Position numbers and translations under genes: made by a program. 64,000 bases of DNA from an uncultured Bacteroidota bacterium (lineage in GTDB: Bacteria; Bacteroidota; Bacteroidia; B-17B0; Aurantibacillaceae). Below, piece after piece: positions 54,107 to 60,546 of this stretch; position 1 is the stretch's first letter, and each line of letters starts with the position of its first letter. The stretch lies in NCBI GenBank assembly GCA_937873155.1, contig CALMVZ010000010.1, positions 310,001-374,000 on the forward strand. The letters are read 5' to 3'. The notes under the pieces were generated by a model. It was not told where the DNA came from and searched no databases. It saw only the letters and a program-made list of their open reading frames with translations.

Positions 54107-56047
54107 TTATAGTGAAGTGCGCTTGTTCTCCTTCGCTATTGGTTTATGATAAGTTAAAGTGAAGCTAATTTCGTAATTCCGCAAGGGCATTGGCCGTTGA
54201 GCGATAACCATATAATCTGCATTGTATAAATTATTAAAATGCAAGGCAGTCATAAAAGAAACTTTATTAAAAGTATGCTGATGGGAAATTTTCAAATTTG
54301 CATACTGATAAGGTTTCAACCATGAAGTATTATCGCTGGTGGTGAAACGGTAGCCGATATAATTATGATAATAAGAAATACCGAACTTATTGTACGCTAT
54401 CGAAAAACTTCCGCCGTAATTATAGCGTGGTGTATAAATAAGCTGCTTATTCACCGATGCGTCATTCTCTAAATGGGATTCAGTTGAAGTGGAAAGCACA
54501 TAAGCGCTGTTAAATCCGATCTGTGTTTTAAATTTATTTAAAGTGTAAGAAACACGGCTCGATGTTTCGGTACCACGACTATATACTTTCATTAAATTAA
54601 TAGGTGTTGGATTCCCTCCGGGTCCCGGAACCCAATAGATCCAGTTACTGATGTTCTTATTAAAGTAGGTCATTTCCGTTTCAACCAAAAAGCGTTTGTA
54701 TGGAAATTTAATTTCAAAACTTCCCTCATAAGTAAATCCTTCTTCAGGTTTAAGATCAGGATTTCCTCCCGGGTTCCAATAGAGGTCATTTAATGTTGGG
54801 AGACGGTAAACTTTAGCTGCATTTGCTTTTAATTTCACTTGTTTAAGTAGTTGATAAGAGATACCTGCGCCTCCTGTTAAAGGGATTTTTATTGCTTCAG
54901 AGAATTCCTGACGTAGATTTATATCGATTTGAAGTTTCTGTTCAAAGTAATTTAGGTTGTAGGCAAGCAAAAGAGCTTCTTTCGACATACTTTGGGAAGG
55001 TTTTAAATAATTAGGGGTTTCCGAAGTGTAATTCGTGTAATTGAAGCCGAAATATAATTTATGGTTTGTATTAATATAATAATTCACATCAGCTTCACTG
55101 ATCAATGTTTTTATTTTACTTTCTGAGAATATTTTAACAGCGCTGTCAGTATAATTCAATCCATCGTTAAAGTAAGCAAACCGGACGGCAGGAACTATTT
55201 TTTTTCCCTGGTAGATCCAATCGGCGCTAAGTTTTAAATTTTCATCAGTTTGTGATGCAGAGCTTTTCTTGTTCCACAAAGCAGGGGGAAGATTCCTGAA
55301 CGAAGAGTTATACCAGGCGCGGACAGTGATCTTATTATTCTTAAGGAACAAATAACTTAACTCCTGTAAAAAACCTTTAATGATAAAATCGGAATGCGTT
55401 TGACGCTTGATAATTGTATCAGAATATTCAAAATTGTTTTTCGAGCGGTTCAGGTATACTTTTGTGGTAAAGCTGAATTTACCGGATGAATAATGTATCA
55501 CGGAATTCATTTTTTTCGTCGAATAACTTCCGCCGCCAATATTGATCGAAGTGAAAACGCCTTTATTGAATTTTGCTTTATTGTTCAGATGGATGCTTCC
55601 GCCCATTGCACCGCTTCCCCAAACCGCAGCCGACCCTCCATATTCAATACCAATATCATCAAAAATAAAATTGGGTAATTGCGAAAGATCGTTTTGTCCT
55701 AGCATATTATTCTGAATATTAAAACCATTCCAGAGAATTGCAGTTTGGGAAGCATTTCCTCCCCTGAAACTGCTGGTGCTTAAATTACCAGGACCGTAAT
55801 TCTTAACGAACACCGGCGAATTCACAGATAATAATTCAGAAAAATTACTGTTGCTGAAATTTTGTTTGGTAAGAGAATCAAATTGCTGAACCTTTTTTCC
55901 TGCAATGAATTGTTTGGTTTGCACGCCAGTGATCTCTACTTCTTTTAAGGAGATCAAAGAACTGTCACTTGTTTGTGAAAAAGCGGTAGCCATTCCAAAA
56001 CAGGACAACAGGGACAAGGCATAACGGATATGTATATTATTGCACAA
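54107..56047 (-). CDS. btuB: TonB-dependent cobalamin receptor BtuB
   Basis: 646 residues. A signal peptide ending near Ala-Phe-Ser-Gln, a plug domain (residues about 35-155, Leu-Ser-Thr-Ser-Ser-Phe-Arg-Gly-Gly and Gly-Ala-Met-Gly-Gly-Ser-Ile) and a 22-stranded barrel. The function is inferred from the cobalamin riboswitch upstream and the BtuG-like gene. The first usable codon is TTG (56047), with TAA just before it. No ATG occurs before residue 19, so the start is unusual or the sequence has an error here. TonB uses proton force to drive transport. Confidence 0.87.
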   Translation of the reverse strand: MCNNIHIRYALSLLSCFGMATAFSQTSDSSLISLKEVEITGVQTKQFIAGKKVQQFDSLTKQNFSNSNFSELLSVNSPVFVKNYGPGNLSTSSFRGGNASQTAILWNGFNIQNNMLGQNDLSQLPNFIFDDIGIEYGGSAAVWGSGAMGGSIHLNNKAKFNKGVFTSINIGGGSYSTKKMNSVIHYSSGKFSFTTKVYLNRSKNNFEYSDTIIKRQTHSDFIIKGFLQELSYLFLKNNKITVRAWYNSSFRNLPPALWNKKSSASQTDENLKLSADWIYQGKKIVPAVRFAYFNDGLNYTDSAVKIFSESKIKTLISEADVNYYINTNHKLYFGFNYTNYTSETPNYLKPSQSMSKEALLLAYNLNYFEQKLQIDINLRQEFSEAIKIPLTGGAGISYQLLKQVKLKANAAKVYRLPTLNDLYWNPGGNPDLKPEEGFTYEGSFEIKFPYKRFLVETEMTYFNKNISNWIYWVPGPGGNPTPINLMKVYSRGTETSSRVSYTLNKFKTQIGFNSAYVLSTSTESHLENDASVNKQLIYTPRYNYGGSFSIAYNKFGISYYHNYIGYRFTTSDNTSWLKPYQYANLKISHQHTFNKVSFMTALHFNNLYNADYMVIAQRPMPLRNYEISFTLTYHKPIAKENKRTSL

Positions 56048-56148
56048 TTATCTTTTCAATAATTTGAGCAATACGGGAATAACAAAACAATTAAAATAAA
56101 TCGTTTTCGCTAGCTTTTCTTCCCGAAAGCTACAAACTATGTGTTATT

Positions 56149-56312
56149 GGCAGGTCTTCTGACTTATCTCCCTTTGATGGCCTTCCCGAAGTCATCCTGA
56201 ATTTTCCCGACAGCTATCGGGATCAGGATCTTTCAGTGGCTAAGAATGATCAAAGGCTGTTTTGAGAATCACAGCAGCGGGAACTGTTCGCGAATCACAC
56301 GCGTTTCCCTTT
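56149..56312 (-). ncRNA. Cobalamin riboswitch
   Basis: Read on the minus strand from 56312 the conserved elements appear in order: AAAGGGAA, GTGTGATTC, CAGTTCCCGCTGCTGT, GCCACTG, GGGAAGGC and the B12 box AGACCTGCC near 56149. Between GCCACTG and GGGAAGGC is an extra hairpin (stems TCCTGA/TCAGGA and TCCCGA/TCGGGA). It lies about 100 nt upstream of the btuB start and should repress it when adenosyl- or related cobalamin is abundant. Apart from riboswitch and repeat, the 416-bp gap holds nothing I can name. Confidence 0.92.
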
Positions 56313-56345
56313 TAATCTTTAACAATTAAAGAACCATTAACGACA

Positions 56346-56376
56346 CAAATGTACAAAAAATTCCTGCGCTTACAAA
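56346..56376 (-). promoter_or_regulatory. Promoter of the B12 operon
   Basis: On the minus strand TTTG (56376-56373), a 19-nt spacer and TACATTTG (56353-56346), an exact match to the Bacteroidota consensus. Transcription would start about 30 nt before the riboswitch core. Confidence 0.8.
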
Positions 56377-56378
56377 TT

Positions 56379-56472
56379 CAGGGCTAAAGCCTATGTAGTT
56401 GTGTGAGTTTTATAAACCCCGGCCTTAAGGCCGGGGTTATGGAAATGCGAAGAAGAAAAGGCTTTAGCCCTG
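56379..56472. repeat. Composite palindromic element, copy 1
   Basis: Outer 13-bp inverted repeats CAGGGCTAAAGCC (56379-56391) and GGCTTTAGCCCTG (56460-56472) surround a perfect 24-bp palindrome (56415-56438, centre CTTAAG). The right arm provides the last codons and the TAA stop of the phenylalanine hydroxylase gene. Copy 2 lies at 57414-57508, upstream of the same gene. Confidence 0.9.
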
Positions 56473-57222
56473 AAAGGAAATTGATGCTTCTCTCTTTACT
56501 ATGTGTTTGATCTTTTCGATCGAATCATACAATTCATCAAACGAAGCGATCACAAAATATTTATCCTGTATCTTATCATTCTCGAAACTTGTGTGCATTA
56601 TTTTCTCGACATCAAATGTTAAATGCGTGGGTTCTGAACTTACCGAGAATTTAGATTCACCATAAGATGATAAAATTCCTGCACCGTAAATTTTCAGTTT
56701 TCCGTCTTCTTTCATCAGGCCAAACTCAACAGTAAACCAGTACAATCTTCCTAACATGCTTAAGATCTCAGGATGTTGTTTGTTCTTCACACCAAGTTCT
56801 CCGATGGTTTTAAAGAAATCACAAAACTTTTGATTCGTTAACAAAGGGACGTGCGCAAATACATCATGGAACATATCCGGCTCCGGCAAATAATCCAATT
56901 CACTTAATTTCCGCAGCCATGTTGTGGCAGGGAATTTTTGCCGGGAAAGTAAATTGAAGAAATCTTCTTCGTTAATAATACCTTCAACAACCTCTAAACT
57001 CCATCCGGTTTCTTTTAGCAGAATTTCATTTACCTCTTTAAAGTCAGGAATCCGTTCAGCACTGAACTTTATGGTCTTGATACTCTTTAAATATTCCGAC
57101 GAGGCAAGTTCTTCCAAAAGGATCATCTGCCTTTCGAAAAGTGTTTTCCATACCAGGAAGTCTTCCGGTGTGTAAAGATCATAATCTTGTTTTAAGTTCT
57201 GTTTAAGCGCGTAAGTTTTCAT
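56464..57222 (-). CDS. phhA: Phenylalanine 4-monooxygenase
   Basis: 252 residues from the ATG at 57222. The frame is open to 57327 but that part holds an intrinsic terminator, so it is leader. Iron ligands: His119 and His124 in Met-Phe-His-Asp-Val-Phe-Ala-His-Val-Pro, and Glu166 in Leu-Tyr-Trp-Phe-Thr-Val-Glu-Phe-Gly. The small single-domain bacterial form oxidises Phe to Tyr with O2 and tetrahydropterin. The stop codon lies in the composite repeat. Upstream are a Tyr-rich leader ORF and a terminator, which together look like an attenuator. Confidence 0.94.
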   Translation of the reverse strand: MKTYALKQNLKQDYDLYTPEDFLVWKTLFERQMILLEELASSEYLKSIKTIKFSAERIPDFKEVNEILLKETGWSLEVVEGIINEEDFFNLLSRQKFPATTWLRKLSELDYLPEPDMFHDVFAHVPLLTNQKFCDFFKTIGELGVKNKQHPEILSMLGRLYWFTVEFGLMKEDGKLKIYGAGILSSYGESKFSVSSEPTHLTFDVEKIMHTSFENDKIQDKYFVIASFDELYDSIEKIKHIVKREASISFQG

Positions 57223-57251
57223 TTTGTTATGGTTTTGGTAATAAATTAAAA

Positions 57252-57276
57252 AGCCCTGTTCGGTTTGAACAGGGCT
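57252..57276 (-). terminator. Attenuator terminator before phhA
   Basis: Perfect 10-bp stem (AGCCCTGTTC/GAACAGGGCT) with a 5-nt loop, followed on the minus strand by TTTTTAATTTAT. It ends about 30 nt before the phhA ATG and lies 22 nt after the leader ORF stop. The sequence GAACAGG in its 3' arm also occurs in the leader ORF (57324-57318) and could pair there with the 5' arm. Confidence 0.85.
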
Positions 57277-57298
57277 CTGATTATAGTAAAAAATTAGT

Positions 57299-57370
57299 TT
57301 AATATATATAAAGCATACCTGTTCCAACTGTGCGCGGATACCAATAATAATATGCTTTTGATAGATTCAT
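57299..57370 (-). CDS. Leader peptide rich in Tyr, upstream of phhA
   Basis: A 23-codon ORF, ATG at 57370 to TAA at 57301-57299. Residues 7-11 are Tyr-Tyr-Tyr-Trp-Tyr and the peptide ends Leu-Tyr-Ile-Tyr: six Tyr and one Trp in 23. It begins 5 nt after a TACATTTG promoter box. Codons 15-18 contain the bases GAACAGG that can displace the terminator. Composition, position and pairing fit a ribosome-stalling leader peptide. Conservation has not been tested. Confidence 0.75.
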   Translation of the reverse strand: MNLSKAYYYWYPRTVGTGMLYIY

Positions 57371-57375
57371 CACAA

Positions 57376-57406
57376 CAAATGTATTAAATAAATCTAATTC
57401 AGCAAA
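57376..57406 (-). promoter_or_regulatory. Promoter of the phhA leader
   Basis: On the minus strand TTTG (57406-57403), a 19-nt spacer and TACATTTG (57383-57376). The leader ATG starts 5 nt after the box, so the leader peptide would be made from a leaderless or nearly leaderless RNA. Confidence 0.75.
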
Positions 57407-57413
57407 TGAAACC

Positions 57414-57508
57414 GTCAGGGCTAAAGCCCAATATTATTCTGTTTGTACAACCCCGGACTTAAGTCCGGGGTTTAAAATACTAAGTAAATTGCGGGCTTTA
57501 GCCCTGAC
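57414..57508. repeat. Composite palindromic element, copy 2
   Basis: Outer 16-bp inverted repeats GTCAGGGCTAAAGCCC (57414-57429) and its complement (57493-57508) surround a perfect 24-bp palindrome (57449-57472). Arm and palindrome order and spacing match copy 1 at 56379-56472. The central palindromes differ only by a compensating base pair. Confidence 0.9.
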
Positions 57509-57597: not shown

Positions 57598-60546
57598 ATG
57601 AAACGACTGGTTCTCATAGTATCTTGTTTTGTCTTGTTTTTGAACTTTTCGTACGAGAAGCCTAAAGACAAGACGCCTGATTTTTTGGCGCTAGAGACCA
57701 AATGGGTGGATTCTGTTTTCAATGCTTTAACACCTGATGAACGCATCACCCAATTGTTCATGATCGCGGCTTATAGTAATAAAGACATCAAGCATGTCCG
57801 TGAAACACGCGAGATCATTCAGAAATATAATGTGGGTGGATTGATCATGATGCAGGGCGGACCGCTTCGTCATGCTAAATTGGTTAACTATTACCAGGAT
57901 AAAACAAAAACGCCTTTATTATTAAGTATTGATGGAGAGTGGGGATTGGCCATGCGTTTGGATAGTACGCCACGTTATCCTAAACAAATGGCACTCGGGG
58001 CAATTCAAAATGACTCGTTGATCTATTACATGGGAAAACAAATTGCAAAAGAATGCAAGCGTGTTGGCCTCCATGTGAATTTCGCGCCTGTTGTGGATGT
58101 AAATAATAATCCTGCCAATCCTGTGATCGGCATCCGGAGTTTTGGTGAGGATAAAAATAAAGTAGCTGTTAAAGCTTATATGTACATGAAAGGAATGCAG
58201 GACGAGAAAGTGATGGCAAATGCAAAACATTTTCCCGGTCACGGTGATACAGATGTGGATTCGCACAAGGGGTTGCCTTTGATTTCTCATCCCAAACAAA
58301 GATTAGACTCTTTAGAATTATATCCCTTCAAATATTTATTCGATCGCGGACTTGCCAGTGTCATGGTAGCGCATTTGAATGTTCCGGCTTTAGACACAAC
58401 AAAGAATTTGCCATCAACCTTATCGCCTAAGATCGTAACTGATCTCTTAAAAAAAGAAATGGGATTTGAAGGCCTGGTCTTTACTGATGCTCTCAACATG
58501 AAAGGCGCTTCTGATTATTTTACGCCCGGTGTTATTGATGTGAAAGCGTTGCAGGCAGGAAATGATGTACTCTTATTTTTGAATGAAGTGCCTAAAGCAT
58601 TAGAAGAAATTAAAAAAGCGATTGCGGCGGGAACGATCAAGCAGGAAGAGATCGATGCCCATTGTAAAAAAGTATTGAAAGCAAAATACTGGTGCGGTTT
58701 GAATGAGAAACATGGCGTCCGTACAAAGAATCTTTACGAAGACCTGAACACAAGGGAATCTGATGCCCTGAATACAAAACTCGCAGAAGCGACAATGACC
58801 TTGTTGAAGAACGATAAGAATTTATTGCCTTTAAAGAATCTTGCCGGCTTAAAGATCGCCGAAGTATCGATCGGAATGGAGGAGAAGAATACATTTAGTG
58901 AGGCAGCTTTGCATCATGCACCAATGGAACATTTCGGTATTGAGCACGACGCTAAGAAAAAAGATATCGATTCTTTATTCTCCAAATTAAAGAACTACAA
59001 TTTCGTGATCCTACAGGTAAACAAATCAACTTTAAAGCAGGAAAAGAATTACGGCGTAACAGATCAAAGCCTGAAGATCATCGATTCTATCTCTTCATGG
59101 AAACCAACAGTTGCTGTATTCTTCAATAATCCTTATGTGATGAATGCTTTAAAATGGCCAAGCCGTTTGGAGTCTATTATCATGGCTTATGAATTTACGC
59201 CGTTCACACAACGCGCTGCTGCAAATGTGATCTTTGGTGCTGTTAAAGTGAATGGCAGACTTCCTGTTTCAACACAGTATTTTAAACTGAATACAGGTCT
59301 CGATCTCGATAAGGTCATCCGGACCAAGTTTGTCGATCCCAGTTCAATGGGGATCCAAAAAAAAAACCTTGAGATAATCGATAGCATTGCTAATCTTGGC
59401 ATTACCGAAAAAGCTTACCCGGGTTGCCAGGTCGTTGCCATTAAAGACGGTAAATTATTCTTCCAAAAATCGTACGGAACTTATACTTACGACAGCGCTT
59501 CGCCAAAAATTACCGATCAAACCATTTATGATCTTGCTTCAATAACTAAGATCTCTTCTTCTTGTCTCGCCTTAATGAAGTTGAATTCAGAACAGAAATT
59601 TGATTACAAAAAAACCTTAGGTTATTATCTTCCTGAAGTCGCAGGTAGTGATAAAAGTGATCTTGTGATAGAAGATGTGTTAACACACCAGGCGGGATTA
59701 ATGGCATGGATCCCTTTCTATTTGAAAACAATGGATAAACAGGGGAATTATAAACCGGGTTATTATGATGATAAACGTTCTGCAAAATATCCTGTACAAG
59801 TCGCAAAGAATTTATATGCTGCGAAATGGGTGGCAGATACAATGTTCAGCAGAATTTTAAGAAGCAAGCCCGAAGAAAAAGGAAAATATCTTTACAGTGA
59901 TCTCGGTTACTATTTTATGCAGCGCATCATTGAACAATTAACTTCTACACCGCAGGAAATTTATGTAGAAGAAAATTTTTATAAACCAATGGGACTTGGA
60001 TTGACCTATCGTCCTCTGGATAAGTATAAATTAGAACAGATTGCCCCGACAGAAAATGACACTAAATTCAGAAAGCAAGTTGTGCACGGTTATGTGCATG
60101 ATCCCGGTGCGGCGATGCTCGGCGGGGTAGCAGGACATGCCGGATTATTCGGCACAGCAAAAGATCTGGCGTTGTTAATGCAAATGTATTTGGACAAAGG
60201 GGTATACGCCGGTGTTCGATACCTGGATAGTAATGTTGTTAAAGATTTCACAAACTATCATTTTCCGAATAACAGAAGAGGCTTATGTTTTGATAAACCC
60301 GAACCTGATCCGAAAAAAGATTCTCCTGTTACTGATCTTTGTTCTCCTGAAAGTTATGGTCACAGCGGTTTTACAGGAACATTCACATGGATAGATCCGA
60401 AGAATAAATTAATTGTAGTATTCTTATCAAACCGTGTTTATCCGGATGCCGAAGAGAATAAATTAGCTAAGCTGGGAATAAGAGGAAAAATTCACAGAGC
60501 CTTTTACGAAGCTGTTCAATCTGCTGAAGCAGTTCCTTATCAATAA
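57598..60546 (+). CDS. GH3 beta-N-acetylglucosaminidase fused to a beta-lactamase-family domain
   Basis: 982 residues: signal peptide (about 1-20), NagZ-type glycoside hydrolase 3 domain (about 30-390) with Lys210-His211-Phe-Pro-Gly-His-Gly-Asp-Thr-Asp and nucleophile Asp297 in Phe-Thr-Asp-Ala-Leu, a GH3 C-terminal domain (about 400-590), then a serine beta-lactamase/DD-peptidase-like domain with Ser-Ile-Thr-Lys (SxxK), Tyr-Ser-Asp and His-Ser-Gly. The Asp in place of Asn in the second motif is seen in esterase-like members. It probably processes cell-wall fragments. This fusion recurs in Bacteroidota. Confidence 0.9.
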   Translation: MKRLVLIVSCFVLFLNFSYEKPKDKTPDFLALETKWVDSVFNALTPDERITQLFMIAAYSNKDIKHVRETREIIQKYNVGGLIMMQGGPLRHAKLVNYYQDKTKTPLLLSIDGEWGLAMRLDSTPRYPKQMALGAIQNDSLIYYMGKQIAKECKRVGLHVNFAPVVDVNNNPANPVIGIRSFGEDKNKVAVKAYMYMKGMQDEKVMANAKHFPGHGDTDVDSHKGLPLISHPKQRLDSLELYPFKYLFDRGLASVMVAHLNVPALDTTKNLPSTLSPKIVTDLLKKEMGFEGLVFTDALNMKGASDYFTPGVIDVKALQAGNDVLLFLNEVPKALEEIKKAIAAGTIKQEEIDAHCKKVLKAKYWCGLNEKHGVRTKNLYEDLNTRESDALNTKLAEATMTLLKNDKNLLPLKNLAGLKIAEVSIGMEEKNTFSEAALHHAPMEHFGIEHDAKKKDIDSLFSKLKNYNFVILQVNKSTLKQEKNYGVTDQSLKIIDSISSWKPTVAVFFNNPYVMNALKWPSRLESIIMAYEFTPFTQRAAANVIFGAVKVNGRLPVSTQYFKLNTGLDLDKVIRTKFVDPSSMGIQKKNLEIIDSIANLGITEKAYPGCQVVAIKDGKLFFQKSYGTYTYDSASPKITDQTIYDLASITKISSSCLALMKLNSEQKFDYKKTLGYYLPEVAGSDKSDLVIEDVLTHQAGLMAWIPFYLKTMDKQGNYKPGYYDDKRSAKYPVQVAKNLYAAKWVADTMFSRILRSKPEEKGKYLYSDLGYYFMQRIIEQLTSTPQEIYVEENFYKPMGLGLTYRPLDKYKLEQIAPTENDTKFRKQVVHGYVHDPGAAMLGGVAGHAGLFGTAKDLALLMQMYLDKGVYAGVRYLDSNVVKDFTNYHFPNNRRGLCFDKPEPDPKKDSPVTDLCSPESYGHSGFTGTFTWIDPKNKLIVVFLSNRVYPDAEENKLAKLGIRGKIHRAFYEAVQSAEAVPYQ

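Follow-up and report, generated by a model that had tools for sequence, protein, structure and literature searches.

Introduction

The trp and pheA operons of Escherichia coli are controlled by leader-peptide attenuators, in which a run of codons for the regulated amino acid lies within a leader ORF, the leader RNA can form 1:2, 2:3 and 3:4 pairings, and a terminator precedes the gene. The same arrangement is found on the minus strand of the DNA described here, a 64,000-nucleotide stretch from an uncultured Bacteroidota bacterium (the window, by which we mean this whole stretch), although here the codons are for tyrosine, the target is a phenylalanine hydroxylase gene (phhA) rather than an operon for chorismate-derived synthesis, and transcription probably begins at the start codon of the leader itself. 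Within the same phylum, Bacteroid-trp RNA is a trp attenuator and likewise the leader of an aromatic amino-acid gene, but both the amino acid and the gene differ, and the window leader has no Rfam match at gathering score. This RNA appears as RF01692 in a table of PMC2864571. In the part of PMC9723704 that deals with Flavobacteriaceae, 'strong clues' are reported for leader-peptide attenuation at amino-acid biosynthesis operons, together with conserved structured 5' elements upstream of pheA and hisG, among others; these elements share the phylum of the window, and that section names neither phhA nor tyrosine. Leader peptides whose RNA begins at the leader start codon, as is predicted for the window, are described in passages on Streptomyces lividans (PMC8079986) and Sinorhizobium meliloti trpL (PMC7298713), in other phyla and for other amino acids.

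An earlier interpretation of the window from its letters (the sequence-only reading) proposed Tyr-codon attenuation of phhA and knew of no prior description. Our search of full-text literature, mostly non-subscription and without supplements, agrees, in that no description of a Tyr leader or of a phhA attenuator was found among the papers listed, as judged from titles, abstracts and selected passages. The mechanism is classical, and it is tyrosine as the sensed amino acid, phhA as the target, and the breadth of occurrence that appear to be new.

Results

A Tyr-codon leader and a terminator precede phhA

The phhA gene (57222–56464, minus strand) codes for a phenylalanine 4-monooxygenase of 252 aa by NCBIfam assignment, scores above the cut-offs of two models (NF008877, 286.3 bits against 247; TIGR01267, 273.6 against 264.75), and is the sole Biopterin_H match in the window's genome. 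Upstream of it on the same strand are a promoter of the Bacteroidota type, with a TTTG element (57406–57403) followed after 19 nt by a -7 box, TACATTTG (57383–57376), and then an ORF of 23 codons plus TAA encoding the putative leader peptide MNLSKAYYYWYPRTVGTGMLYIY (57370–57299). The peptide has six Tyr residues, four of them in a Tyr-Tyr-Tyr-Trp-Tyr cluster (57352–57338) that is the predicted stall site, with the two others following. A hairpin lies between the ORF and phhA, its 5' arm AGCCCTGTTC at 57276–57267 (region 3) and its 3' arm GAACAGGGCT at 57261–57252 running into the T run TTTTAATTTA (region 4, 57261–57248); the stem is a perfect 10 bp with the loop AAACC, or 12 pairs if the flanking bases are counted. 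The promoter elements, the Tyr ORF and the perfect terminator ahead of phhA are thus all present where the sequence-only reading had placed them. A consensus promoter scan, which targets sigma-70 sites of another type, left the promoter unmarked.

The gene upstream of the leader (57598–60546, plus strand) is divergent from phhA. The hairpin therefore cannot be the terminator of that gene, a role that we considered and rejected, and it belongs to the 5' region of phhA itself.

Several other elements were seen nearby. Two REP-like palindromes, facing each other, flank phhA and its leader (56406–56473 and 57415–57487); they have CCCCGGNCTTAAGNCCGGGG cores and GGCTTTAGCCC-type flanks, and these are the only two cores in the window at two mismatches or fewer. 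A cobalamin riboswitch (95 bits; 56132–56353, minus strand), which by eye includes a palindrome at about 56196–56227, lies ahead of a long ORF (54107–56047) that appears by eye to encode a TonB-dependent receptor.

Mutually exclusive pairings in the leader RNA

Within the ORF, the segment GAACAGG (region 2a, 57324–57318) begins 13 nt past the last clustered Tyr codon and is the candidate 5' strand of an antiterminator. It had been proposed to be identical to part of the 3' arm of the terminator and complementary to its 5' arm, and the sequence agrees, the partner being CCTGTTC (57273–57267) in region 3. That switch is nonetheless incomplete as first proposed, because a further helix is missing from it: AAAGCATA (region 1, 57358–57351), whose end falls within the first Tyr codon, is a perfect complement of TATGCTTT (region 2b, 57317–57310), which directly follows GAACAGG, and this helix is present in minimum-energy folds. 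With these as the strands of an anti-antiterminator, all four classical regions are found in the leader, as 1:2 (AAAGCATA/TATGCTTT), 2:3 (GAACAGG/CCTGTTC) and 3:4 (the terminator). Because the 1:2 helix crosses the antiterminator, the two cannot coexist as nested structures.

In the RNA folding that had been suggested as a check, the leader region folds better than all of 200 shuffles (200/200; z -3.63). The off state is not favoured in naked window RNA: at equilibrium the antiterminator has a probability of 0.99, and of 0.98 when a ribosome occupies the final Tyr codon of the cluster. The anti-antiterminator reaches the Tyr codons, although in the window it is not favoured once region 3 has been made. 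A plain equilibrium switch is therefore unsupported for this leader, and switching must depend on timing and ribosomes. To reach the off state, the window leader would have to form its 1:2 helix ahead of the antiterminator while the RNA is being made, or a ribosome would have to pass through. GAACAGG lies 17–23 nt upstream of the stop codon, and much of it would stay exposed if a ribosome stood there.

We also compared the window leader with described RNA families. No Rfam family matches it at gathering score, those found at E≤10 being far below their cut-offs, and the only amino-acid operon leader among these is Thr_leader, with 15.6 bits against 55. These scores rule out filing the leader under a known Rfam family, whether T-box, riboswitch or amino-acid operon leader.

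Tyr leaders recur upstream of phhA in other Bacteroidia

The comparative sample consists of 77 loci encoding short-type phhA (about 250 aa) with at least 250 nt of upstream sequence, drawn from two overlapping sets (100 relatives and 395 genomes of the class) with each locus counted once. Locus L102 was dropped before this count because of a contig end, as were L110–L112, L167–L176 and further weak matches; L110–L112 and L167–L176 are mostly enzymes of 583–628 aa, L172 being a weakly matching frame of 242 aa. A fixed rule was applied, namely an ORF of 8–40 codons in which some stretch of five has three or more Tyr, and an intrinsic terminator 15–110 nt after the cluster. This arrangement is present at 37 of the 77 loci, in none of the 77 reverse complements and in none of 770 dinucleotide shuffles, which excludes chance. 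The sample leans towards the window's own family, which contributes 21 positives of 22 loci, compared with 16 of 55 outside it. Inspection under a relaxed rule adds three loci (L123, L152, L156) with a Tyr leader and hairpin that the fixed rule missed, giving 40/77, and of the 27 family-level groups 14 have leaders of this kind. The comparative tests called for in the sequence-only reading are thus passed: many Bacteroidia have, ahead of phhA, an ORF rich in Tyr, a terminator and an antiterminator segment to match, with the qualification that 40 of the 77 loci fail the strict rule. These negatives include phhA genes close behind a same-strand open frame, for which a leader would be expected further upstream, and one genome (G316, L147) in which the sequence ahead of the gene is N. 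At seven loci (L095, L118, L126, L129 and L131–L133) phhA begins about 50 nt or less behind a same-strand open frame longer than 180 codons, and a leader, if present, would precede the whole unit.

Closer to the window, all seven testable genomes of its genus are positive, with G001 cut by a contig end. Among 80 named phhA loci, leaders are present in L001–L006 and L010, and no Tyr-rich ORF with a terminator was found in L007–L009, L011–L049 or L068 in a scan that omitted L050–L067 and L069–L080; L008, L009 and L011 have Tyr-containing open frames ahead of phhA with no terminator after them. Tyr makes up 173 of 824 leader residues, compared with 5.0% in window ORFs of at least 200 codons, and the cluster begins at codon 7–9 in 32 of the 37 strict-rule leaders. 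Outside the Tyr run, lineages differ widely in both the peptide and the RNA.

Model R1 was searched in 60 genomes for further copies. It recovers six phhA leaders of the genus at 107–150 bits, five of which were in the model, the sixth being that of G006, which resembles G007; the scores then drop to 46.7 bits, for a Tyr leader in G027 that lies at a contig end, and to 44.3 bits, for the leader ahead of phhA in G013. G005 also has a phhA leader, which is not among the matches listed, and a diverged leader would escape this model. The window's genome has 12 matches at E≤1, and among the matches listed there is no second target: besides the leader, six are terminator-like at gene ends and lack a Tyr-cluster ORF.

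The putative antiterminator keeps its distance from the Tyr codons

In each leader we took the best complement to the terminator 5' arm as the antiterminator segment. In 35 of the 37 this segment starts 10–17 nt past the final Tyr codon of the cluster, while its position relative to the stop codon ranges from -33 to +5. Ribosome footprints place the emergence of RNA from a ribosome stalled on the Tyr codons at this same distance, and the spacing fits the proposal that stalling on Tyr leaves GAACAGG free. Judged against shuffles of the same stretch, which were of single bases and not of pairs, the complementarity reaches p≤0.05 in 26 of the 37 leaders and fails to do so in 11. For 16 lineage representatives the leader scores 16.4 against its own terminator arm and 12.3 (sd 0.67) against permuted arms from other lineages, with the own-arm value reached in 0 of 20,000 permutations; for the 1:2 helix the corresponding scores are 16.75 and 12.8 (sd 0.70), again 0 of 20,000. 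Together with the controls for the fixed rule, this permutation test rules out a chance Tyr ORF or terminator. The 1:2 pairing is weak in the short leaders of L103–L107, and the antiterminator of G002 is in another register and pairs weakly.

Covariation was examined in an alignment (A1) of seven close relatives, five from genomes of the genus plus L003 and L005. The 1:2 helix and the terminator keep 95.8% of their pairs with compensatory changes, and the covariation score is reached by none of 500 shuffles; one A-T to C-G compensation is in the region 1 helix. In the antiterminator, three of the seven sequences have a single A-T to C-G exchange that the terminator arm also shows, which is not significant alone (55/500 shuffles). 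The column involved in the terminator arm changes in step with its two partners, except in G002, where the antiterminator side stays behind.

The 37 leaders were also modelled with and without a ribosome. When one is placed on the final Tyr codon of the cluster, the predicted probability of the antiterminator is at least 0.5 in 33 leaders, compared with 16 when no ribosome is included, and in 34 of the 37 the value is lower without the ribosome than with it.

Promoter geometry predicts RNA starts at or just before the leader ATG

The -7 box TAnnTTTG covers positions -12 to -5 in Flavobacterium psychrophilum, according to the relevant section of PMC9723704. If this geometry is valid here, the window RNA would start at the leader ATG or one base before it, with 57371 as the predicted start. 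Across the 37 leaders, 21 have a -7 box with no more than one mismatch that ends 4–5 nt ahead of an in-frame start codon, and these 21 RNAs are predicted to be 'leaderless'; in 15 of them the box is an exact TAnnTTTG. Of the remaining leaders, 13 have the box 6–22 nt from the start, and in three none was found. For 95 mechanically defined control ORFs of at least 100 aa there are 12 exact boxes no more than 60 nt away, of which two have the 4–5 nt spacing. In the portions of the published surveys that bear on this, leaderless transcripts are 5.5% of the mRNAs examined in F. psychrophilum (PMC9723704) and 5' UTRs shorter than 10 nt are about 3.7% in B. thetaiotaomicron (PMC7366714).

Tyr leaders and tyrA seldom occur together

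Phenylalanine hydroxylase is usually described as a catabolic enzyme in bacteria. The portions of PMC7311316 that concern mutant fitness attribute tyrosine supply to PhhA in Dyella japonica and, in the Bacteroidota species Echinicola vietnamensis, to PhhA acting redundantly with TyrA. We compared the occurrence of leaders with that of tyrA, scored as a PF02153 (prephenate dehydrogenase) match of at least 80 bits, in a tally that assumes the 395 genomes of the PF02153 search to be the 395 of the phhA search, those without a match being itemised only in part. Under the strict rule tyrA was found in none of the 37 genomes with a leader and in 17 of the other 40 (Fisher 2.1e-6), and under the relaxed rule in 1 of 40 (G221) and 16 of 37 (1.3e-5), p-values that overstate the evidence because the genomes are related and 12 of the 37 leader genomes are less than 90% complete. 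The contrast is also seen within families f1 and f15 under the strict rule. Prephenate dehydratase was found in two (G034 and G037) of 23 strict-rule leader genomes searched. Another 21 phhA genomes have neither leader nor tyrA, and hence phhA is not always under this control.

Some tyrA-bearing genomes have leader-like sequences of other kinds. Four in f15 are not leader-free but have mixed Tyr/His/Phe leaders; at L115, L116, L119 and L121 of this family, in tyrA-bearing genomes, the leaders mix Tyr, His and Phe or Leu (for example MNPTPRTYIHHSHYYLQ) and are followed by a terminator. G380, also in f15, has a Tyr-cluster leader and no tyrA match. In f49, the leader-like ORFs of L155 and L160, which end in VKCFDLTINRPAGNGVGLHCRYRN and AKCFCLNIRPVVDGVGLYCRYGS, lack a Tyr cluster; each is preceded by a -7 box and followed by a terminator whose 5' arm can pair with GGAGT(C/T)GGGC inside the ORF, and both genomes carry tyrA.

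In the window's genome, which is rated 100% complete, neither tyrA nor pheA was recognised in searches with PF02153 and PF00800. A weak PF02153 match (21.9 bits, below cut-off) was rejected as tyrA, the gene being proC, for pyrroline-5-carboxylate reductase, which is above the cut-off of TIGR00112. Chorismate synthase is present, and on gene content phenylalanine uptake and the formation of tyrosine by phhA would thus be required. The genome also has two 4-hydroxyphenylpyruvate dioxygenases above cut-off (460 and 451 bits) and a third match just below it (267 against 277), the three loci being G000:C27:55445-56524, C11:292929-293993 and C22:9392-10456; with the two genes, breakdown of phenylalanine by way of phhA is also possible.

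Discussion

The window leader has the features of an attenuator: clustered codons, a terminator ahead of the gene, an antiterminator segment just past the predicted stall site, and a 1:2 helix. By its family match, the regulated gene makes the amino acid whose codons are clustered. We propose, with a probability of roughly 0.86, that phhA is controlled by ribosome-mediated, leader-peptide attenuation of transcription, with charged tRNA-Tyr as the signal sensed, and it is from the arrangement of the DNA that we infer the RNA start, translation, stalling and the response to tyrosine. In the proposed mechanism RNA polymerase would start at the leader AUG or one base before it, and ribosomes would begin at the 5' end of the RNA; Bacteroidota are described as being without Shine-Dalgarno sequences. 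When tyrosine is ample the ribosome would clear the Tyr codons, and regions 1 and 2 would pair, such that GAACAGG is held, the 3:4 terminator forms and transcription ends before phhA. When tyrosine is short, the ribosome would stall in the Tyr cluster and cover region 1, leaving region 2 free to pair with region 3; this 2:3 pairing would block the terminator, phhA would be made, and phenylalanine would be converted to tyrosine.

The alternative with most to recommend it, which we nonetheless consider unlikely, is that the attenuator is real but tunes phhA for phenylalanine breakdown or for a general aromatic response, rather than for tyrosine supply. The two 4-hydroxyphenylpyruvate dioxygenase genes above cut-off in the window's genome and the 21 phhA genomes that have neither Tyr leader nor tyrA are compatible with this, but a Tyr-stalling leader would then turn breakdown on only when its product is scarce, and the rarity with which leader and tyrA co-occur (0/37 or 1/40) also argues against it. 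A switch that responds to tyrosine starvation would fit a role in tyrosine supply better than one in catabolism.

We give very little credence to either of two further explanations. One is an RNA switch that binds a protein or a metabolite (a T-box, a riboswitch or the target of an RNA-binding protein), with the Tyr ORF being incidental. Strong structures do form without a ribosome, as such a switch would have it, but the leader has no Rfam family at gathering score, and the sequence varies widely outside the Tyr run whereas the spacing from the Tyr codons is fixed. Just as improbable is that the leader is a small functional protein and the hairpin the ordinary terminator of a constitutive short RNA. 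The identity of AYYYWYP in the window and L001–L005 speaks for this; however, little besides the Tyr run is kept in other lineages or in G005 of the same genus, and this explanation gives no reason for the matched complementarity of the leaders to each terminator arm.

Beyond control of phhA by a Tyr-sensing attenuator in the window, a broader account is tentative, and we put it at somewhat under even odds. This is that Tyr-sensing attenuators with a 5'-terminal AUG form a family across the Bacteroidia, in lineages that would have lost the chorismate route (tyrA, often pheA) and in which phhA would be an attenuated biosynthetic enzyme, while some lineages with tyrA (f15, f49) may keep an attenuator-like phhA site with other codons.

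These observations offer a testable account, for a large bacterial group, of both the source of tyrosine and its control, and the biosynthetic role of a bacterial phenylalanine hydroxylase is supported by the proposed regulation, beyond gene presence. For annotation, a Tyr leader would flag a biosynthetic phhA. The leader is also a ready reporter for ribosome-polymerase coupling and for 5'-terminal initiation in Bacteroidota and, if such leaders function with no 5' UTR, these organisms must couple the ribosome closely to RNA polymerase.
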